A stretch of DNA of 61,589 bases from Microtetraspora sp. NBRC 16547 (lineage in GTDB: Bacteria; Actinomycetota; Actinomycetes; Streptosporangiales; Streptosporangiaceae), in NCBI RefSeq assembly GCF_030268965.1, contig NZ_BSSE01000035.1, positions 1 to 61,589 of the forward strand, read 5' to 3'. Positions within the stretch are counted from its first letter, which is position 1. The number at the start of each line of letters is the position of its first letter. The position numbers and the translations under genes were made by a program. Positions 35,996-45,037 of the stretch are shown one piece after another. The notes under the pieces are model-generated. The model did not search any database and was not told where the DNA came from. It saw only the letters and a list, made by a program, of their open reading frames with translations.

Positions 35996-37561
35996 TCAGG
36001 CGAGGAACTCGGCGAGCGGGAAAGACCGGTGGGATCGCGGTGGAATCAGGAAATTCTGCCGGTGCGTCGTGTGCACGACAGAATTCAAGCCGGCACTCGA
36101 GGAGCGCGATGAGAAAGAGGCACGCCTGCCACTGGGAAACTCCCCGTCCATGGCAAGGCGCACGCGATTGAAGGTCTCGGTGGTCGGAGCGAAGAGCAGG
36201 AAATGCAATCCGACCGCCTTATCACTGCTGTAATGATCCCCGGCGGGATCTGAAGTGTAGTGGAATGGATTGTCCAGTGTGGCGAAGTCCCCGCGATTCG
36301 TGATGGCCGTATTAACGGGATAGGCGTGACCATAGTTGCTGGTTGTTTGCGTTTGCAGGCGGTTCACCGGCTGCATGCTTCCATTATGTCCATACGCGTG
36401 ATATTTCTGCACGTCACGTAGGACGTCTGCCTCATTTTGCTCGGGCGGGTCCGCTGTCACTGTTCCAGGCGGGAACGAAACTCCCGGGCGAAACATCGCA
36501 CGGATACGAGCATCAAATGTCGGAAACATTTTAGAGTACCACGCGACGAGGTCCTGGAACAGATGTGAGAGGGGCATGATCGTCCCGTGCTTGAAGTATC
36601 CGTTGGGCCATTGGTCCGTCCAGCCGGGCAGCGTCTCAAAGTTGGAGACCGGAACGGAGCTCTCCGCGTCCCGGAGCGTGGTTGTGAATCCGAGGAAGAC
36701 CGGTGAATGCTGGGGGATCAAATTCGCGCCGGGAATGCCTGCCGCGAGTGCCAGCTTGCTCGCCAGCCCCTGCCCATCGGTGTGGGCGCCACCGGTGAAG
36801 CCGCGGCGAATGCTTGTCACCTTGAACAGGCTGCCCGCTTGGTTGTTTCCCGTTCCGAAAATGGCGTTCGTGGCGGCCATGATGTTGGCGAGCGAGTCAC
36901 TGCGCAGCAGCACGGCCACGTCGTTCTGCTCCAGGCGAACTGGCCCGAATCCGGGAGGCGGCTCGTCGCTCGGAAATGTCCTGGACTCCTGCAGCGCATA
37001 GACGGCGTGGCCACGCTGCTTCGAAGTGATCAAATCTACCGGCAAATAAGCCGGGTACGACGTGCCCGCACGGAAATAGCTCGAACTCTTTTCGAGCCTG
37101 GGGATGTAATGCTCGAAATAAGGAAGCCCCCAGGCGATCACGATTCCCACCCCGCTCGGCGGGGGCGGGAGCTGCTGTTCCAGGCGTTGGAGCACGCTTT
37201 CCAGGTGCCGCTGCGCCTCCTGCAGAGGCTTCGCGCTCGCTGACACGTTCAGCTTGGCGGTGACGATATGGTTGTGGAACGGCGGGATCAGGACGGGGAT
37301 TTTGCCTTTATTGCTGGCGATTCCGGAGCCGTCGTCCATAATGAGCCGCGGGTGCGGGATGGCATATTGTTCCTGCGGCAAGGGCTGTCGCGCCGTCCCG
37401 ACCGGCGGCCGCTCGGGTGGCCCGACCAGCGCGTCAAGCAACTCGTAGATTCCCGCGGAAGCCAAGGCCGCGGCGAATGTCCCCCCTTGAAGTACGCTCC
37501 GCCTGCTCAGTTTTTTATGATTCGCCACACCATATGAGGGCACTCCGTCGCTATCTGTCAT
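35996..37561 (-). CDS. Tat-exported protein, possibly DyP-type peroxidase-like
   Basis: About 521 residues from ATG 37561. The N-terminus has a twin-arginine signal (KKLSRRSVLQGGTFAAALAS). The mature part includes GFTGGAHTDGQGLASKLALA, PVFLGFTTTLRDAESSVPVS and the end region GLHFLLFAPTTETFNRVRLA, which look like a divergent member of the DyP heme-peroxidase superfamily (possibly the DUF7405 type), but I cannot assign the heme histidine with confidence. The gene is visibly more A/T-rich than its neighbours (for example the 5' 150 bases), suggesting acquisition. It probably acts in the cell envelope or outside. The luciferase-like gene lies upstream on the same strand with a 140-base gap. Confidence 0.6.
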   Translation of the reverse strand: MTDSDGVPSYGVANHKKLSRRSVLQGGTFAAALASAGIYELLDALVGPPERPPVGTARQPLPQEQYAIPHPRLIMDDGSGIASNKGKIPVLIPPFHNHIVTAKLNVSASAKPLQEAQRHLESVLQRLEQQLPPPPSGVGIVIAWGLPYFEHYIPRLEKSSSYFRAGTSYPAYLPVDLITSKQRGHAVYALQESRTFPSDEPPPGFGPVRLEQNDVAVLLRSDSLANIMAATNAIFGTGNNQAGSLFKVTSIRRGFTGGAHTDGQGLASKLALAAGIPGANLIPQHSPVFLGFTTTLRDAESSVPVSNFETLPGWTDQWPNGYFKHGTIMPLSHLFQDLVAWYSKMFPTFDARIRAMFRPGVSFPPGTVTADPPEQNEADVLRDVQKYHAYGHNGSMQPVNRLQTQTTSNYGHAYPVNTAITNRGDFATLDNPFHYTSDPAGDHYSSDKAVGLHFLLFAPTTETFNRVRLAMDGEFPSGRRASFSSRSSSAGLNSVVHTTHRQNFLIPPRSHRSFPLAEFLA

Positions 37562-37701
37562 ATTGGCGTCGTGCCACGCCATCGGGCTGATCAAACGCTT
37601 CGTTCTGTCATCATTTGACGCGTGTGCCTGGCGCCTCGGAATTGTTCTCCCTCGTCCTCCTGGCAAGCGGACGCTGCACTCAGTGCCTGCGCTGGATCAG
37701 T

Positions 37702-38592
37702 TCATCGCGCGGGCATCCCCTGCTCGCCCAGCGCCTCGGCGAAGCGATCCACCTGGGCCACATCCGGCGCCCAGCAGTAGAGCATGACCTCGTCGGCACC
37801 GACATCGCTCATCTGGACAAGCGTGTCATGGATCTGGCTGGGGGTGGTGAGCATGCTTGCCACCGCGTCCTCGGCGAACCCCGCCGGCAGGTTCATATAG
37901 TGAGGGCCCCCGTAGTAGGTATGCAGTGACTCGCGTGCCTGCTCGATCAGGTGGTCCGGCCCCAGGACGGCGTTGAACTGCGCGACCAGCCGCGGACGGT
38001 CGGCGCGGCCCTCTGCCTGCCACGCCTGCTCGGCGTCCCGGAACTGGCGGGCGGCCTCGGCGAGGTGGGCTGCGCACAGCAGGCCGTCGCCGAAGCGAGC
38101 CGCGCGCCGAAGTCCGGCCTGGCTGAAGGTTCCGAAGAGCACCTCCGGGCCGCCCGCTTGGGCGGGCGCCGGGCCGATCGGGCCGATCCCCTTCCCGTAC
38201 GGCTCGCTGGACCACACACGCCGCATCACTGTCATCGTCTCATCCAGCCGAGCTCCCCGGGTGTGCACATCCACCCCCGCCGCCTCGTAGTCGTCCCGCC
38301 GCGCCCCCAGGCCGATACCGAGCGTGAAACGGCCACCCGACATGCGGTCCAGGGTCGCGGCCTGCTTGGCCAGCAGCGCGGGCTCGCGCAGCGGGGCAAG
38401 CAGCACCTCGGTCTGCACCCGGATCCGGGAGGTGGCCCCGGCGAGCACGCCGAGTGCCACCAATGGCTCGGGGTTGTCGTAGACGAGGCGGTCCAGCAGC
38501 CCGAGTGTGCTGAACGGTCCATCGTCCGCGCGCCGCGCCCACTCCAGCAGGCATTCGGGTTCGCTGATGGGCAGCCCGAGACCGACGTTCAT
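37702..38592 (-). CDS. LLM-class (luciferase-like) flavin/F420 oxidoreductase
   Basis: A 296-residue TIM-barrel protein: MNVGLGLPISEPECLLEWAR, GVLAGATSRIRVQTEVLLAP, ATLDRMSGGRFTLGIGLGAR, RDDYEAAGVDVHTRGARLDE and the C-terminal DTLVQMSDVGADEVMLYCWA. This fits the F420-dependent or FMN-dependent LLM oxidoreductases common in actinobacteria. The cofactor cannot be decided by eye. It sits upstream of the DyP-like gene on the same strand. Substrate unknown. Confidence 0.88.
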   Translation of the reverse strand: MNVGLGLPISEPECLLEWARRADDGPFSTLGLLDRLVYDNPEPLVALGVLAGATSRIRVQTEVLLAPLREPALLAKQAATLDRMSGGRFTLGIGLGARRDDYEAAGVDVHTRGARLDETMTVMRRVWSSEPYGKGIGPIGPAPAQAGGPEVLFGTFSQAGLRRAARFGDGLLCAAHLAEAARQFRDAEQAWQAEGRADRPRLVAQFNAVLGPDHLIEQARESLHTYYGGPHYMNLPAGFAEDAVASMLTTPSQIHDTLVQMSDVGADEVMLYCWAPDVAQVDRFAEALGEQGMPAR

Positions 38593-38814
38593 GTGTCCCC
38601 CTCACTGTCGCCGATCCGCGCACGGCCGCGCGCAGAGTCCCCTCCTGGCCACGGCTCACCGATGGTTGCGGTATGTGCTGGTACGCGTGCGCGTGGTATT
38701 CGTGCCCAGGCCGAGGGCGAGAATGCGCCTCAGTCCGTCCGTTCGAGGGTGCCTATCGTCGTCGGCCGGAGTGCCAACCCCGCCGGGCACCGCAGGTCGG
38801 GCGCAGTAGCTCGG

Positions 38815-39171
38815 TCACCCGCCACTCAGGCGTTCGGCCCAGTCGGCGGGCACCCGCCCGGCGGGCCCGGGGACGGGCTGGTCGACGGGGCGGCTCTCCG
38901 GCGGCGCCAACGCGGGCCCGGATTCGTAGAACTCCGAGGTGGTGTAGTCCCAGAACCACTCCTCGCCCGGTTCGAAACTGCGGATCACCGGGTGTCCCGT
39001 CTCCTTGGCGTGCGCCGTGGCGTGTTTGGACGGCGAGTCGTCGCAGCAGCCTATGTGGCCGCAGAGGGCGCAACGCCGCAGGTGCACCCACCATCCGCCG
39101 GTCGCGTCGCACTCGACGCAGCCGGTGCCGCTCGGTGGAACGGCGGGGTCGATCGCTTGCTCGGGACTCAT
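38815..39171 (-). CDS. UBP-type zinc-finger protein
   Basis: A 118-residue protein made almost only of a ZnF-UBP domain: CVEC (18-21), WWVHLRRCALCGHIGCC (28-43), HATAHAKETGHPVIRSF (50-66) and EEWFWDY, with the cysteine and histidine ligands of the family present. In eukaryotes this fold binds free ubiquitin C-termini; in bacteria the ligand is unknown. Its ATG overlaps the kinase stop (39168-39171). It is the last gene of a three-gene overlapping operon with a histidine kinase and a receiver-flavoprotein fusion, so it is probably a partner in that redox signalling set. Confidence 0.88.
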   Translation of the reverse strand: MSPEQAIDPAVPPSGTGCVECDATGGWWVHLRRCALCGHIGCCDDSPSKHATAHAKETGHPVIRSFEPGEEWFWDYTTSEFYESGPALAPPESRPVDQPVPGPAGRVPADWAERLSGG

Positions 39172-40625
39172 GGCAACTCCTCGGAGGTGTCCGGGTCGGC
39201 GGGAGACAGCGGGAGGCGGACCTGGAAACGGGTGTCGCAGGGCACGGACTCGACCCGCAGGTCGCCGCCGTGCCGGCCGACGACGATGCGCCAGGAGATG
39301 TCCAGGCCCAGCCCGGTGCCCTCGCCGACGGGTTTGGTCGTGAAGAAGGGGTCGAAGATGCGGTCGCGGATCTCGGGAGGCACGCCGGGGCCGGTGTCGC
39401 CGATCTCGACCAGCAGGCGGTCGCCGTCCCGTGCGGTGCGGACGGTCAGTGTGCCGTCTGCGTCCGTGCCGCCCATGGCGGAGAGCGCGTTGTCGACGAG
39501 GTTGGTCCACACCTGGTTGAGCTCGCCGGGGCACGCCGGAATCTCGGGCAGCGTGCGGTCGTAGTCCTTGACGACACTGACGCGCGCCCCGATCTTCTGC
39601 GAGAGCATGACCAGCGTACTGTCGAGCAGGTCGTGTACGTCGGTGTGCTGGTATGGCGCGCGGTCGAGTTGCGCGTAGTGCTTCGCCGCGTCGACCAGGG
39701 CGGAGATGCGGGTGGTCGAGTCCTCGATCTCGCTGAGGAGGAGTTCGGTCTCGACGGTGCAGTTCAGCCAGCGTACGGCCGCGTCGAGCACGTCCGGGGG
39801 CACGGCCGCGGCGATCCGGTCCAGCCAGGGGATATCGAGACCGGCCTGCACGAACGTCGGCGCGAGCTGCCATCCGTTGGCGATGCCGTGTTCGTCCAGC
39901 CAGTCTGTCAGGACGTCCTCCCGGTCCGAGGCCTCCAGTGGGCTGAGGGCGGGGGCCCGTGCGGCGAGTTCGGCGGTGTCTTCCTGAATCCTGGTCAGCG
40001 CGTCGACGCTGTCCCGCCGGATCGGGTCGGCCGCGATGTCGCCGAGCCCGTGACGCATTCCGGCCACCCGCTCCCGGAGTTCGGCGGTGGCCCGCACCGC
40101 GGCGGCGGCCGGGTTGTTGAGCTCGTGTGTGAGCCCGGCCGTCAGCGACCCGAGGGCCAGCAGGCGCTCGCGCTGGCCGATCGCCTGCTGGGTGTTCTTG
40201 GTCCCGAAGAACAGCCCCTCCAGCAGATGGACGGCCATGGGGAACCAGTCGCGCATGATCTCCGCGAAGGTCTCCGCGGGCAGGACGAAGAACCGGGAGG
40301 GCTCGGTGACCCGCATCGAGTTGTTGTAGACCTGTGGCACCTGGTCGCCCAGGTACGCCTGGAAGGCCCCGGCGTACACGCCGCGCATGGAGGTGCGGTT
40401 GACGTCCACGTCTTCACCGCCGACGCGGCGTGAGAGCACCACCGTGCCCTCGAAGAGGACGTACAGGTACGCGGCCGAGTCGCCCTCCCGGTAGACCGTG
40501 CCCGGGTCGGACCACTCCACCCGGCCGTCCCGGCACAGCCGGGCGAGCTGGTTGTCGGAGAGCTTCTCGAAAAGGAACAGGGAGCGCAGCTCTTCCTCGT
40601 CGCAGTGCGTTCCGGGTCGGGTCAT
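39168..40625 (-). CDS. Soluble histidine kinase with cyclic-nucleotide-binding domain
   Basis: 485 residues. Residues 15-135 are a cNMP-binding (CRP-like) domain (LFEKLSDNQLARLCRDGRVE, YREGDSAAYLYVLFEGTVVL, FVLPAETFAEIMRDWFP). H-box LLALGSLTAGLTHELNNPAA has the phosphoacceptor His167. N-box LNQVWTNLVDNALSAMG, G1 VEIGDTGPGVPPEI and G2 GEGTGLGLDISWRIV are all intact. No membrane segment, so cytoplasmic. ATGA overlaps both sides: with the receiver-FAD gene (40622-40625) and UBP gene (39168-39171). The receiver of the upstream gene is the obvious phosphorylation partner. Confidence 0.93.
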   Translation of the reverse strand: MTRPGTHCDEEELRSLFLFEKLSDNQLARLCRDGRVEWSDPGTVYREGDSAAYLYVLFEGTVVLSRRVGGEDVDVNRTSMRGVYAGAFQAYLGDQVPQVYNNSMRVTEPSRFFVLPAETFAEIMRDWFPMAVHLLEGLFFGTKNTQQAIGQRERLLALGSLTAGLTHELNNPAAAAVRATAELRERVAGMRHGLGDIAADPIRRDSVDALTRIQEDTAELAARAPALSPLEASDREDVLTDWLDEHGIANGWQLAPTFVQAGLDIPWLDRIAAAVPPDVLDAAVRWLNCTVETELLLSEIEDSTTRISALVDAAKHYAQLDRAPYQHTDVHDLLDSTLVMLSQKIGARVSVVKDYDRTLPEIPACPGELNQVWTNLVDNALSAMGGTDADGTLTVRTARDGDRLLVEIGDTGPGVPPEIRDRIFDPFFTTKPVGEGTGLGLDISWRIVVGRHGGDLRVESVPCDTRFQVRLPLSPADPDTSEELP

Positions 40626-42298
40626 GACTGCTCCAGATAGCGGTGCACGAGCATGACGGCCATGGCCCCCTCGCCGACCGCGGAGGCGACCCGTTTGGCG
40701 GACTCGGCCCGCACGTCGCCCGCCGCGAACACGCCCGGCACGCTGGTCTCCAGGTGGTATGGCGGCCGGTCCAACGTCCATCCGGCGGGCGGGCGCCCGT
40801 CCGGCGACAGGTCGGGACCGGTCAGGACGAACCCGTGCGGATCCCTGAGCACCGTGCCGTCCAGCCAGTCGGTCAACGGCGCGGCCCCGATGAACACGAA
40901 CATCCACTGGGTCTCCACGGTCTCGGTCTCTCCGCTCACCGTGTTGCGCAGCGTCAGCTTCTCCAGATGCTCCGTACCGTGAACGGCCTCCACGACGGTG
41001 TCGGTGCGCACCGAGATCACCGGGGACTCCATGACCCGCTGGAGAAGGTAGTGCGACATCGAGGCGGCCGGCGATGACCCGCGCACCACCAGGGTGACGG
41101 ACTTGGCACTCCGGGCAAGGAACATCGCGGCCTGGCCGGCCGAGTTCGCCCCGCCGACGATGTACACGTCCTGCCCCTGGCACGCGGGAGCCTCGGTCAG
41201 GGCTGCTCCGTAGTACACCCCGCACCCGGTCAACTCGGTGGCGCCCGGCACGTCCAACTGCCGGTACGAAACGCCCGTCGCCAGGATCACGCAGTGCGCG
41301 GAGACCTCGGAACCGTCCGAGAACCGGAGTGTGCGCGCCGCGCCCCGCACCTCCAACCCGGTGACCTGGCGCGCCGTCAGCAGCTCGGCCCCGAACTTCG
41401 TCGCCTGACGCCGCGCCCGGTCGGTGAGCTGCGCCCCGGAAACCCCGTCGGGGAAACCGAGGTAGTTCTCGATGCGTGAGCTCTGACCTGCCTGGCCGCC
41501 GGTCGCCTCGCGCTCCACCAGGACCGTCCGCAGCCCTTCAGAGGCTCCGTACACGGCCGAGCCCAGGCCGGCCGGTCCGCCACCAACGATGACGAGGTCG
41601 TAGAAGTCGGCCGCCGGAGTCGTCGACAGCCCCACCCGGCCCGCCAGTTCACGCTCCTCGGGCTCCACGAGCGCGGTGCCGTCCGGGGTGACCACCAGCG
41701 GCAGCCGAAGCCCGTCCTGGCCCGCGGCGTGGAGCAGTCGCCGGCCTTCCGGTTCGTCGGCCGAGTACCAGCGGTAGGGAACCTGGTTGCGGGCCAGGAA
41801 CTCCCGGATCTGCGAGGAGCGTGCCGACCAGCGGTGACCGACCACTTTGGTGGTGGGCGTCTCCTTGCCGTCGGTGACCCGCCAGGACTCCAGCAGGTCG
41901 TCCAGCACCGGATAGAGCTTCTCCTCCGGCGGGGCCCACGGCTTGAGCAGGTAGTGATCGAGGTCGACGACGTTGATGGCGTCGATCGCGGCGCCGGTGT
42001 CGGCATAGGCGGTGAGCAGCACGCGCCGGGCGCCGGGGAACAGGTCGAGGGCCTGCTCCAGGAACTCGACGCCGTTCATCCGCGGCATGCGGTAGTCGGC
42101 CAGGAGCACCGCGACGTGGCTGCCCCGCAATTTCAGCTCACGCAGAGCCTCCAGCGCCGACTCACCGGACTCGGCGCGGACCACGCGGTACCGGTCGCCG
42201 TAGCGGCGGCGCAGGTCGCGGGCGACGGCGCGGGACACCGCCGGGTCGTCGTCCACGGTCAGGATGACCGTACGCGATGCGTCGACGGCCTCCGCCAT
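40622..42298 (-). CDS. Receiver domain fused to thioredoxin-reductase-like flavoprotein lacking CxxC
   Basis: 558 residues. 1-135: response-regulator receiver with acidic DDD (16-18), phospho-Asp68 in VLLADYRMP and Lys119 in HYLLKPW. About 150-225: a small thioredoxin/glutaredoxin-like segment (WSARSSQIREFLARNQVPYR) where the CxxC position has no cysteine. 233-558: two-Rossmann TrxR fold with FAD motif IVGGGPAGLGSA (237-248), NADPH motif IVGGANSAGQAA (380-391) and FAD end PGVFAAGDVRAESAKRVASA. The usual redox-active CxxC is replaced by GCGVYYGAALTEA (from residue 358), so disulfide reductase chemistry is unlikely. First gene of the operon with the kinase and UBP finger. Confidence 0.92.
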   Translation of the reverse strand: MAEAVDASRTVILTVDDDPAVSRAVARDLRRRYGDRYRVVRAESGESALEALRELKLRGSHVAVLLADYRMPRMNGVEFLEQALDLFPGARRVLLTAYADTGAAIDAINVVDLDHYLLKPWAPPEEKLYPVLDDLLESWRVTDGKETPTTKVVGHRWSARSSQIREFLARNQVPYRWYSADEPEGRRLLHAAGQDGLRLPLVVTPDGTALVEPEERELAGRVGLSTTPAADFYDLVIVGGGPAGLGSAVYGASEGLRTVLVEREATGGQAGQSSRIENYLGFPDGVSGAQLTDRARRQATKFGAELLTARQVTGLEVRGAARTLRFSDGSEVSAHCVILATGVSYRQLDVPGATELTGCGVYYGAALTEAPACQGQDVYIVGGANSAGQAAMFLARSAKSVTLVVRGSSPAASMSHYLLQRVMESPVISVRTDTVVEAVHGTEHLEKLTLRNTVSGETETVETQWMFVFIGAAPLTDWLDGTVLRDPHGFVLTGPDLSPDGRPPAGWTLDRPPYHLETSVPGVFAAGDVRAESAKRVASAVGEGAMAVMLVHRYLEQS

Positions 42299-42465
42299 GT
42301 TTCACCTCCGGGACTTGTCAGCTCACGGCACGCCCGCGCCGCGGACCACCTGGCCGACTTTATTCGGTCGGTGGAGCACGACAGCGCGCAAGGCACTGTC
42401 GACTCCGACGGTGGTCGTACCCACCCACTTCCGCCGGGCACCACGATCCACTCCCTCGGCGCCGT

Positions 42466-43068
42466 GTTCGCATGGTGCTGGTCAACCGCAGAGTCGAGGA
42501 CCTGGAGACCCCCTACGTCACGGCCGACGATGTCACCGGGGTGACGCTGGCCGTCGAACACCTGGCCAGGCTGGGGCACACCCGCATCGCCCACCTTTCC
42601 GGGCCGCAGACCACCTCGACCGGAGTGGCCAGAGCGCGGGCCTTCCGCCACGCCGTACGCGACCGGGGCCTGGAGGACGATCCGTCACTCGTCGTGGAAT
42701 GCGCGCGCTGGAGCGAGGCCGACGGCGCCCACGCGCTGCGCCTGCTGCTGGACAGGGGGGCACGGTTCACGGCGGTCGTCGCGGGCAACGACCTCATCGC
42801 GCTGGGCTGCTACGACGTGTTCGCCGAGCGCGGCATCTCGTGCCCGGAGGACATGAGCGTGGTGGGCTTCAACGACATGCCCTTCCTGGACAAGCTCCGC
42901 CCCGCGCTGACCTCGGTCCGCATACCACACCACGGCATCGGCGTGGAGGCGGCGCACACACTGCTCGAGTGCATCGAGGAGCCCGCGCGGCCCCCGCGCT
43001 CGCTGCTGCTTCCTGTGTCCCTGGTCGTCCGCGACTCCACGGCGCGTGCGAACGAGCGCCGGCTGTGA
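42466..43068 (+). pseudogene. LacI-family regulator without its DNA-binding domain
   Basis: The sugar-binding domain from VRMVLVNRRVEDLETPYVTA through GYDVFAERGISCPEDMSVVG-like sequence and DMPFLDKLRPALTSVRIPHH to VSLVVRDSTAR is intact, but the HTH and first about 100 residues are absent. The preceding 42299-42465 is a different frame without family match. It cannot bind operators as encoded. Confidence 0.8.
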
Positions 43069-43163
43069 GCGGAGGGCGTCACCGCTCTCCGACCTGCGCT
43101 TCGACTGAGGCGCTGAGCAGCGTGAGTTCGTGGAATTTCTCTCACGCCAGAACTGTTCCGCAA

Positions 43164-43184
43164 GTTGAATGTTTAACATTCAAC
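43164..43184. promoter_or_regulatory. Perfect 21-bp palindrome upstream of pirin
   Basis: GTTGAATGTT-T-AACATTCAAC, 10-base arms and a single central T, 16 bases before the pirin ATG. The TTGAA...TTCAA form is typical of MarR-family operators; no MarR gene is adjacent (the nearest is at 50 kb). Confidence 0.85.
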
Positions 43185-43200
43185 CAAACTTGGAGGGACC

Positions 43201-44184
43201 ATGCCCGCCATCACCGCCAACACGCTGACGCTGCCCCGCGTGGTCGTGCCCGATCCCGCCGCGGCCGTCCAGCGCCCGGTCCGGTCGGTGACCACCGCGC
43301 CCAGCGCCTTCGAGGGGGAGGGCTTCCCCGTACGGCGTGCGTTCGCCGGGGTCTCCTTCGCCGACCTGGACCCGTTCATCCACATGGACCAGATGGGCGA
43401 GGTCGAGTACGCGCCCGGCGAGCCCAAGGGCACGGCCTGGCACCCGCACCGCGGCTTCGAGACCGTCACCTACATCATCGACGGGATCTTCGACCACCAG
43501 GACTCCAACGGCGGCGGCGGCACGATCACAGACGGCGACACCCAGTGGATGACCGCCGGCTCCGGGCTGCTGCACATCGAGAAGCCGCCGGAGCACCTGG
43601 TGGTGTCCGGCGGGCTGTTCCACGGGATCCAGCTGTGGGTCAACCTGCCGCGGGCGCACAAGTTCCACCCGCCGCGCTACCAGGACATCCGCGGTGGCGA
43701 GGCCACGCTGCTCGCCTCGGCCGACGGCGGCGCGCTGCTGCGGGTGATCGCCGGCGAGCTGGACGGTCACCAGGGGCCCGGGATCACGTTCACCCCGATC
43801 ACGATGGTGCACGCCACCGTCAGCCCGGGCGCGACGCTGGACATACCGTGGAATCCCGCCTTCAACGCACTTGCCTACGTACTGGCAGGCCAGGGCTCTG
43901 TGGGTGCCGGGCACGCGCCCATCCGCAAGGGGCAGCTGGCCCTCTTCGGACCCGGCGGGGCGCTCACGCTGGCCGCGGACCCGCGGCAGCCGCAGGCCGA
44001 GCCGAACCTGGAGGTGCTGCTGCTCGGCGGGCAGCCGATCCGCGAGCCCGTCGTGCATTACGGGCCCTTCGTGATGAACACACGCGCCGAGATCCTGCAG
44101 GCGATGGAGGACTACCAGGCCGGCCGCCTGGGCGTCGTCCCCGCCAAGCGGATGCCGCACACCGACGGAAAGGAGCGGCCATGA
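43201..44184 (+). CDS. Pirin-family bicupin protein
   Basis: A 327-residue pirin-like protein. The N-terminal cupin metal site is present: FIHMDQMGEVEYAPGEPKG, WHPHRGFETVTYIIDGIFDH (two histidines), DGDTQWMTAGSGLLHIEKPP; the C-terminal cupin starts TFTPITMVHATVSPGATLDI. Pirins bind iron; some have quercetinase activity or act as redox-responsive co-regulators. ATG 43201 follows TTGGAGGG. The stop overlaps the next start by ATGA. The upstream palindrome suggests MarR-type control. Confidence 0.92.
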   Translation: MPAITANTLTLPRVVVPDPAAAVQRPVRSVTTAPSAFEGEGFPVRRAFAGVSFADLDPFIHMDQMGEVEYAPGEPKGTAWHPHRGFETVTYIIDGIFDHQDSNGGGGTITDGDTQWMTAGSGLLHIEKPPEHLVVSGGLFHGIQLWVNLPRAHKFHPPRYQDIRGGEATLLASADGGALLRVIAGELDGHQGPGITFTPITMVHATVSPGATLDIPWNPAFNALAYVLAGQGSVGAGHAPIRKGQLALFGPGGALTLAADPRQPQAEPNLEVLLLGGQPIREPVVHYGPFVMNTRAEILQAMEDYQAGRLGVVPAKRMPHTDGKERP

Positions 44185-44495
44185 CCGCGACCCTGGCCGA
44201 GGAGTTCGCTCGCGGCCGGATGTTCTTCGAGCTCAAGGACTACATCGGCGCCGCCCGCATCCTGGCACCGGTGGTCGCCGCCGAGCCGGGCAACGTGGCG
44301 GCCCGCCTGCTGCTGGCCCGCGCCTACTACCACTCCGCCCAGCTGCGCGGAGCCGAGGCAGAGCTGCGTGCCGTCATCGAGCGTGATCCCACAGAGGAGT
44401 ACGCCCACCTGCTGCTGGGCCGTACCCTCCAGCGGGCCAACCGGCACGCGGAGGCGGAGACCCACCTTCGGTTGCACGCGGCCATGACCGGATGA
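44181..44495 (+). CDS. Small TPR protein
   Basis: 104 residues forming about two and a half tetratricopeptide repeats: ARGRMFFELKDYIGAARILA, EPGNVAARLLLARAYYHSAQ, LRGAEAELRAVIERDPTEEY and AHLLLGRTLQRANRHAEAET. It is translationally coupled to pirin (ATGA). Such TPR proteins serve as protein-protein adaptors; association with pirin is inferred from the operon. Confidence 0.88.
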   Translation: MTATLAEEFARGRMFFELKDYIGAARILAPVVAAEPGNVAARLLLARAYYHSAQLRGAEAELRAVIERDPTEEYAHLLLGRTLQRANRHAEAETHLRLHAAMTG

Positions 44496-44568
44496 TCGAT
44501 GGCGCCCCTGGCCGGCGCGGCCGGCCAGGGGCGCACTGAGCGCACGCTCGAGTGCTCACCTCGGACAC

Positions 44569-44805
44569 GCCGACCTTGATCGCCTCGGCTTGCGCGCTGT
44601 CGCCGGCGATCGGGCGCAGCTGGTGGGAGTCGGTGCGGATCATGTCCGCGGCCTCACCGATCTGCTCGGCGATCATCGCGTGCAGCCGGGCCATCCCCGC
44701 CACGCCCTCGGGCAGGCGGGCGTTGGCCAACCGGCGGCCGGATGCGTCCATCACCTCCACATCGTGATGCGCCTCGGCCCAGTCATCCCCGACGAACAGT
44801 CGCAA
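44569..44805 (-). pseudogene. IS110-family transposase remnant
   Basis: MRLFVGDDWAEAHHDVEVMD, GRRLANARLPEGVAGMARLH is the DEDD-type IS110 N-terminus; the next residues jump to MIRTDSHQLRPIAGDSAQAE, deleting the middle of the RuvC-like domain. Nothing follows after about residue 79. Confidence 0.82.
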
Positions 44806-44920
44806 CAGCTCTCCCCACTCAGAACACGATCACAAGCAGCAGCCCGCGGGAGAACCATCAGCGACCTAATCCCCATGGACGAACGAGCCGAGGACGCGCG
44901 CCGACGGCGGCGATCTCCCA

Positions 44921-44941
44921 TCGAGATAACCGACATCTCGA
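44921..44941. promoter_or_regulatory. Inverted repeat upstream of MFS gene
   Basis: TCGAGAT-N7-ATCTCGA, perfect 7-base arms, about 97 bases upstream of the proposed GTG start. A candidate operator for the MFS gene, perhaps bound by the downstream LysR. The stretch 44806-45037 contains no gene. Confidence 0.6.
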
Positions 44942-45037
44942 ACCATCGCCGTGAGTGGGGAAGCGGCGAGCGTCGTCGAGCGCTTGTGCCCCGTGAAAGC
45001 ACCGAGCAAGGTGCCCCTTCCTACGAAGAAGGTCTCC

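Follow-up and report, generated by a model that had tools for sequence, protein, structure and literature searches.

The DNA analyzed here (below, the window) is a stretch of 61,589 nt, contig 35 (NZ_BSSE01000035.1) of the 7.8-Mb genome of Microtetraspora sp. NBRC 16547 (assembly GCF_030268965.1). On its minus strand, from 42298 down to 38815, three overlapping genes form an operon, a real, widespread and uncharacterized variant of the two-component system. Gene 1 (40622..42298, minus strand, as all operon coordinates below) encodes a 558-aa protein composed of a receiver, a mycoredoxin-like insert and a thioredoxin-reductase-like flavoprotein, as seen from the open reading frame (ORF), Pfam matches and alignment; gene 2 (39168..40625), a 485-aa soluble histidine kinase with a degenerate cyclic-nucleotide-binding (cNMP)-type domain (ORF, Pfam, alignment, AlphaFold); gene 3 (38815..39171), a 118-aa stand-alone UBP-type zinc finger with a conserved C-terminal tail (ORF, Pfam). 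Stop and start codons overlap as ATGA at both junctions, 40622..40625 between genes 1 and 2 and 39168..39171 between genes 2 and 3, in agreement with the initial annotation of this DNA.

In a scan of bacterial genomes, relatives of gene 1 were found in at least 531 stretches, some of them perhaps ordinary thioredoxin reductases. The best 80 of these, further referred to as close loci, show 80–90% identity and are titled Streptomyces, Kitasatospora, Streptacidiphilus, Yinghuangia and, in one case, "Actinobacteria bacterium". The kinase adjoins gene 1 in all 80 close loci (in L071 the contig ends inside the kinase, and in L039 the kinase aligned only partly), and the UBP gene is present in 74. 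A start codon allowing for the four-base overlap is found at the first junction in 76 of the 80 loci and at the second one in 71 of 74. Substitutions are mostly synonymous, with the ratio of nonsynonymous to synonymous rates (dN/dS) of approximately 0.10–0.42 (genes 1 and 2, four comparisons; gene 3, three comparisons). Conservation of the operon is far beyond chance. The initial annotation had expected similar arrangements in other actinobacteria and had named the lack of co-occurrence in other genomes as grounds for refutation; the arrangement is present in Streptomyces and its relatives, and the co-occurrence holds.

The receiver domain occupies residues 12–124 of gene 1 (41927..42265; Response_reg, 52.4 bits at the cut-off of 30.2) and features the acidic pocket, Asp, Thr/Ser and Lys expected of a receiver: D16, D17, D18, the phosphorylation residue D68 (codon 42095–42097), T96 and K119 (codon 41942–41944) are invariant across 81 sequences. 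The phosphorylatable receiver with Asp68 and Lys119 had been proposed earlier with the same residue numbers, which are correct.

The flavoprotein domain, predicted from its motifs to bind flavin adenine dinucleotide (FAD) and reduced nicotinamide adenine dinucleotide phosphate (NADPH), spans residues 233–556 (40631..41602; Pyr_redox_2 at 233–544, 111.5 bits). The FAD motifs (GxGPxG, GD) and the NADPH motif (GGxNSAGQ) are near invariant in the alignment. The position of CAAC in the thioredoxin reductase of Protein Data Bank (PDB) entry 7jyp reads GAAL in gene 1 (41198–41209), and none of 117 aligned sequences (the window, the 80 close loci and 36 survey or plasmid relatives) has CxxC at this position; the sole CxxC-like string among them, CECC in L213, is at a different place. 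Forty further relatives have no CxxC anywhere in the stretch searched. Hence, the proposed thioredoxin-reductase fold with retained FAD and NADPH motifs and a lost CxxC is confirmed.

The insert between the receiver and the flavoprotein (approximately residues 150–225, 41624..41851) was delineated by profile match and alignment. A profile of 13 inserts finds Rv3198.1 (PDB 2lqo) as the best PDB match (E = 2e-5), and the Pfam Glutaredoxin family matches five of the 13 inserts taken singly (best E = 1.1e-4), with no such match for the insert of gene 1 itself. The similarity to the glutaredoxin Rv3198.1, which we take to be mycoredoxin-1, is weak but specific; Rv3198.1 has a catalytic CxxC, whereas this position in gene 1, as aligned with the family, reads SARS. 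No Cys is present at residues 145–228 of gene 1, and some Cys is found in the inserts of 35 of the 117 aligned sequences. This supports the Cys-less thioredoxin-like insert of the initial annotation and sharpens its family to mycoredoxin/glutaredoxin-like.

Compared with known enzymes, gene 1 shares the common FAD/NADPH fold with thioredoxin reductases (PDB 7jyp, 2q7v) and with AhpF, which also bears an N-terminal redoxin-type part. Unlike them, it has CxxC at neither place, and its score with TIGR01292, the thioredoxin reductase equivalog, is 232 bits, below the cut-off of 343.45; of the attributes of thioredoxin reductases, it thus has the nucleotide motifs and lacks the CxxC and the equivalog-level score. 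More similar are the records titled "Cyclic nucleotide-binding domain-containing thioredoxin-disulfide reductase", which have the same insert and CxxC-less flavoprotein and in some cases are found beside UBP genes, with the difference that they take their input through a cNMP-type domain of the polypeptide, whereas gene 1 has a receiver. Judged by its residues, the gene 1 product is a putative response regulator with enzyme-like output, in which a reductase fold has kept its FAD and NADPH sites and lost the CxxC of both the reductase and the redoxin.

The site where the CxxC was replaced is conserved in its own way: of the 36 relatives from the survey and from plasmids, all have Tyr363 and 35 have Glu369, and these two residues mark a conserved site without thiols. 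Nor does the rest of the flavoprotein offer a universal catalytic cysteine, C373 being present in only 26 of these 36 relatives. These data bear on an alternative in which the flavoprotein is no longer catalytic and serves as a redox sensor or scaffold that binds NADPH and FAD, with the receiver determining its oligomeric or binding state. It agrees with the loss of both the reductase relay thiols and the thiols of the insert against near-invariant nucleotide sites, but the non-random replacement of the CxxC is what would be expected of a working active site, and we regard this alternative as possible, though rather unlikely. The C-terminal tail of gene 1, H552–S558, is also invariant (81 sequences). 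It was considered as a ligand of the UBP finger and dropped, as its coding sequence shares bases with the region for ribosome binding and start of gene 2, and this overlap may explain its conservation.

Gene 2 has a HATPase_c domain at residues 368–474 (82.7 bits) and a HisKA match at residues 158–185, whose 16.6 bits are under the cut-off of 26.9. The H-box residue is His167 (codon 40125–40127), and THELNNP is invariant in 79 kinase sequences (78 of 79 readable relatives were used for the alignment, L039 being left out). The best Foldseek matches of the catalytic half are ZraS, HK853 and CckA. Residues 201–274 (39804..40025) form a helical insertion between the kinase dimerization helices in the AlphaFold model (mean predicted local distance difference test, pLDDT, 73; predicted template modeling score, pTM, 0.39); this insertion is conserved in the relatives, constituting a mark of the family, and is perhaps the cause of the low HisKA score. 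By these features, gene 2 is a genuine HisKA-type kinase. It is soluble, as proposed initially: the maximum 19-residue hydropathy is 0.92, with no transmembrane-like stretch. The same is true for gene 1, with the maximum of 1.29.

The sensor of the kinase had been described as cyclic-nucleotide-type. The domain type is right, since cNMP_binding matches residues 43–125, albeit with 25.2 bits, below the cut-off of 27.5 (for comparison, the relative L156 scores 76.9 bits). At the same time, what we take to be the canonical phosphate-binding cassette, GE...R[ST]A, is retained in the relatives L156 and L129 and gone in gene 2, where it reads GAFQAYLGDQ..VYNNSMRV, with the same or similar sequence across the Streptomyces-type clade. 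Sensing of cyclic AMP (cAMP) by gene 2 is weakened by the loss of this cassette.

To characterize the relation between the kinase and the receiver we used a class survey of 296 genomes, 155 of which hold a gene 1 relative at E <= 1e-70. A gene 2 relative is found within 3.5 kb of 102 of the 122 full-length gene 1 relatives among the matches listed. The sample for the analysis of joint decay comprised 20 survey rows without the kinase and 20 with it, plus the earlier loci; relatives whose annotation, Pfam matches or alignment pointed to a cNMP-type input or to none were excluded (for L152, L158 and L216 the alignment was the sole basis), and L210, with the kinase 2.6 kb away, and L236, at a contig end, were kept apart. 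All 39 receivers with an adjacent kinase, the window included, keep the acidic pocket, Asp68, Thr96 and Lys119 (39 is the number of such copies examined, fewer than exist). In contrast, 17 of 20 receivers without an adjacent kinase have lost at least one phosphorylation residue and three are intact (Fisher p = 4e-12). Thus, the integrity of the receiver tracks the adjacent kinase, an observation that is new here. As receivers decay where the kinase is missing, phosphotransfer from the kinase to the receiver is supported indirectly, and passing of the phosphate from the gene 2 kinase to the fused receiver may be considered strongly supported by this joint decay, which makes the phosphotransfer a sharp prediction.

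Nine of the degenerate receivers (L242–L247, L249–L251) belong to one family, f86, and in them Asp68 is kept, Lys119 is replaced by Arg and Thr96 by Val. All nine f86 genomes also carry a kinase-adjacent copy, intact in the six that were checked (L256, L257, L259–L262). Each of these genomes presents a natural control pair of a kinase-adjacent receiver-flavoprotein and a decayed-receiver paralog without a nearby kinase.

Gene 3 is a stand-alone zinc finger of the UBP type, as had been stated, with the domain at residues 18–83 (38923–39120; zf-UBP, 53 bits at the cut-off of 22.7). In the alignment of fingers scoring above 40 bits, the zinc-ligand positions C18, C21, C34, C37, C42, H50, H54 and H60 are occupied in 98 of 98 sequences and C43 in 97, so that of the six cysteines five are invariant. 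The closest solved relative is PDB 2ida, a "Hypothetical protein" of presumably bacterial origin (E = 1.6e-25). Together with 2ida and the UBP domains of USP5 and USP16, gene 3 belongs to the common UBP zinc-finger family, but, unlike in USP5 and USP16, the tail-binding arginines are replaced: in the alignments, the Arg position of USP5 corresponds to His39 and that of USP16, to Asp44. We assume these arginines to be the contacts holding the ubiquitin C-terminus in eukaryotes. Asp44 is found in 26 of 27 and 66 of 71 aligned fingers, and His39, in 20 of 27 and 58 of 71 (the larger set being 71 of the 74 close-locus relatives, with L032, L035 and L054 left out). Gene 3 and its close relatives also differ from 2ida, USP5 and USP16 in the conserved extra C-terminal tail.

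The suggestion that the finger reads peptide tails in the eukaryotic manner is therefore not borne out. Reading of ubiquitin or Pup tails was rejected as the leading idea because of the replaced arginines and because fingers of the family are also carried by Rhizobium, Variovorax, Deinococcus and Nostoc plasmids, lineages that, to our knowledge, lack Pup.

The genomic context of the finger was analyzed in a survey of the phylum, which revealed 92 UBP places in 68 of 296 genomes. Ninety neighborhoods were examined besides that of the window (one, in genome G175, was left out), and as some contigs are short, the linkage counts are lower bounds. A member of the flavoprotein family is found beside 18 of the 90 UBP places, constituting 17 loci with several gene orders. 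Thirteen of these loci have receiver-type flavoproteins, one of them degenerate (L116); two have cNMP_binding above the Pfam cut-off (L120, L143), and for another two (L152, L158) alignment is the sole basis of their assignment to the cNMP type. Similar links are observed on plasmids and in other phyla: the flavoprotein of the Rhodococcus plasmid L202 has cNMP_binding above the cut-off and is located beside a UBP gene; a UBP-linked flavoprotein on a Rhizobium plasmid has a cNMP match of 25.4 bits, below the cut-off; in Paraburkholderia, a flavoprotein in which no input domain was found lies beside the genes for UBP and a Clp ATPase; and on a Gemmatirosa plasmid (L216) the link was identified by profile matches. 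Conversely, Deinococcus, Caballeronia and Gloeothece have the receiver-flavoprotein and the kinase without an adjacent UBP gene. These relatives show that two kinds of input are interchangeable, the receiver giving way in some of them to a cNMP-type domain of the same polypeptide, and that in others there is no input at all.

Three loci (Rhodococcus L202, Streptomyces L218 and L143) carry the operon CbpM / ClpB / thioredoxin / UBP / cNMP-flavoprotein, with a J-domain gene also present in L202 and L143. The full order on the Rhodococcus plasmid is J-domain / CbpM / ClpB / thioredoxin / UBP / cNMP-flavoprotein, and a plasmid of Streptomyces angustmyceticus has the same order from CbpM onward, the viewed stretch starting inside CbpM. 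In Tsukamurella, the trio is followed by a gene for S-(hydroxymethyl)mycothiol dehydrogenase.

UBP genes are found beside kinase-less degenerate receivers (L116, L235), cNMP-flavoproteins and input-less flavoproteins. As they accompany degenerate receivers and cNMP-type relatives, the finger follows the flavoprotein and not the phosphorelay, and its proposed role as the phosphorelay output is not supported; we read this as the finger working with the flavoprotein. The opposite explanation is a stable neighborhood only, with the kinase and the receiver-flavoprotein cooperating and the UBP gene being an unrelated co-transcribed passenger. It would account for the UBP gene being optional and having other partners, mainly Na+/H+ exchangers. 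However, the link is seen in different gene orders and in several phyla, with the UBP gene on the same strand as the flavoprotein, upstream or downstream, in 29 of 32 places (a wider set including plasmid loci picked by similarity, hence not random), and there is one kinase–UBP fusion, L156. Moreover, a rough estimate of chance linkage, assuming approximately one flavoprotein gene per 4-Mb genome, a 12-kb neighborhood and ignoring shared descent, gives well under one in 90 places against the 18 seen. We consider the passenger explanation doubtful.

Equally improbable in our opinion is a cysteine pair acting in trans, where the flavoprotein reduces or oxidizes a separate thiol protein such as a thioredoxin, a mycoredoxin or the UBP finger itself. 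The thioredoxin gene in the same operon with the UBP gene and cNMP-flavoprotein in L202, L218 and L143, the mycothiol-related gene after the Tsukamurella trio and the six conserved cysteines of the finger are consistent with such a partner; on the other hand, these cysteines occupy zinc-ligand positions and are likely not free, and known thioredoxin reductases require their own CxxC next to the flavin.

Considering all these data, we lean, by a modest degree, toward a cytosolic two-component system in which the kinase signals from His167 to Asp68, the receiver gates a thiol-less flavoprotein, and the UBP finger is an accessory subunit. The modified cNMP-type domain of the kinase would read a stress signal, plain cAMP being an unlikely ligand; the kinase would autophosphorylate on His167, and the phosphate would be transferred to Asp68 of the fused receiver. 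Phosphorylation may then alter the packing of the receiver, the redoxin-like insert and the flavin domain, and this repacking could switch on or off either NADPH-dependent electron transfer to a non-thiol acceptor or an NADPH-reporting conformation. Gating of NADPH-flavin chemistry by phosphorylation, also suggested in the initial annotation, is an inference. The UBP finger would serve as an accessory subunit of the flavoprotein rather than a ubiquitin reader, the association being that of gene linkage, and the binding, presumed.

Several observations weigh against this scheme. The UBP gene is missing from six of the 80 close loci (L005, L018, L024, L055, L068, L071) and was found near just 30 of the 122 full-length gene 1 copies among the matches listed, a lower bound (this count added three UBP places from the phylum survey, one of which, in G161, makes one of the 30 pairs). 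The finger is not exclusive to the trio: a Na+/H+ exchanger is present in 17 of 89 UBP loci, and a flavoprotein, also in 17 of 89. Two Na+/H+ exchangers, L184 and L144, are fused to a C-terminal UBP finger, and the one further UBP gene in the genome of Microtetraspora sp. NBRC 16547 is located beside a convergent Na+/H+ exchanger gene. The AlphaFold model of gene 1 is poor (pLDDT 62, pTM 0.43), precluding a fold search, and the domain interface is unreadable. As for the joint decay, the receivers of L237–L239 are intact with no kinase within 5 kb; a UBP gene adjoins them, and a kinase relative is located approximately 17–23 kb away on the same contig. In L235 and L248 the contig stops shortly after gene 1, which may hide a kinase, and L240 and L252 keep Lys119, their losses being alignment-dependent. 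With L235 and L248 dropped and L240 and L252 called intact, the strictest count is 39 of 39 intact receivers versus five of 18 (13 degenerate), p = 3.5e-9. Finally, the 17 degenerate rows constitute seven families, nine of the rows coming from f86, and are not independent; the p-values are overstated due to this clustering in families, with the direction being uniform.

The most far-reaching possibility, to which we assign very little weight, is that the phospho-gated flavin switch sets the redox and zinc state of the UBP cysteines in trans using NADPH electrons. The finger would then be a redox-controlled adaptor coupling two-component or ligand input to protein-damage control, with a matching job on Na+/H+ exchangers. 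Two Na+/H+ exchangers, L184 and L144, are fused to a C-terminal UBP finger, and the one further UBP gene in the genome of Microtetraspora sp. NBRC 16547 is located beside a convergent Na+/H+ exchanger gene.

Parts of the system have been mentioned previously. A census (PMC5847659) names "Mycobacterium-like" fusions of a response regulator to thioredoxin reductase, which have the same two end domains in one chain as gene 1; the portion of the census considered here names them, with nothing in it on the kinase, UBP, the redoxin-like insert or the loss of the CxxC. Bacterial zf-UBP mini-proteins are likewise in print (PMC2602986). The literature searches returned no study of the trio, the missing CxxC or the UBP link among the matches listed. 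With the fusions of receivers to thioredoxin reductase and the bacterial UBP mini-proteins already known, we class the trio as a novel form of two-component system, one with a putative enzymatic output.

Records naming this family thioredoxin-disulfide reductases are misleading, as 157 of 157 examined sequences lack the defining disulfide at its usual place. Given the presence of a gene 1 relative in more than half of the class genomes surveyed, a mis-named flavoprotein under probable phosphorelay or ligand control is common. The link between the flavoprotein and the UBP finger provides a concrete partner for testing prokaryotic UBP fingers.

The chaperone, thioredoxin and universal-stress-protein neighbors suggest a role of the system in stress. 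A relative of the universal stress protein is present in 53 of the 80 close loci (its orientation is known from three examples), and in L201 its gene (762–1634) lies upstream of gene 1 in divergent orientation. In the window, gene 1 is directly preceded on the opposite strand (42277–43068, plus strand) by a sequence encoding a LacI-type sugar-binding domain (Peripla_BP_3, 126 bits); no DNA-binding domain was found in the encoded protein, and the sequence looks like a truncated regulator gene. On the other side of the operon, a 555-aa ORF with DUF7405 (35999–37663, minus strand) is located beside a luciferase-like monooxygenase gene (37705–38592); the surroundings of gene 1 in the 80 close loci contain neither of the two. 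The search for RNA elements in the window at 36000–45000 produced none above the gathering score.

Among upstream elements, a known stress operator was considered and rejected: a palindrome of the presumed OsdR/DevR-like pattern occurs in only two of 81 upstream regions, with an unrelated conserved element there instead. A promoter-like element GATCGAACATACGATGG (at most three mismatches) precedes the operon in 70 of the 80 close loci (L003–L082), approximately 50–120 bases upstream of gene 1. In the window, this element is not seen within the 250 bases that precede gene 1. The 16-mer GATCGAACATACGATG (at most one mismatch) occurs once in ten of 12 genomes searched and is absent from two; the match is located elsewhere in G182 and directly upstream of gene 1 in the other nine of these ten genomes.

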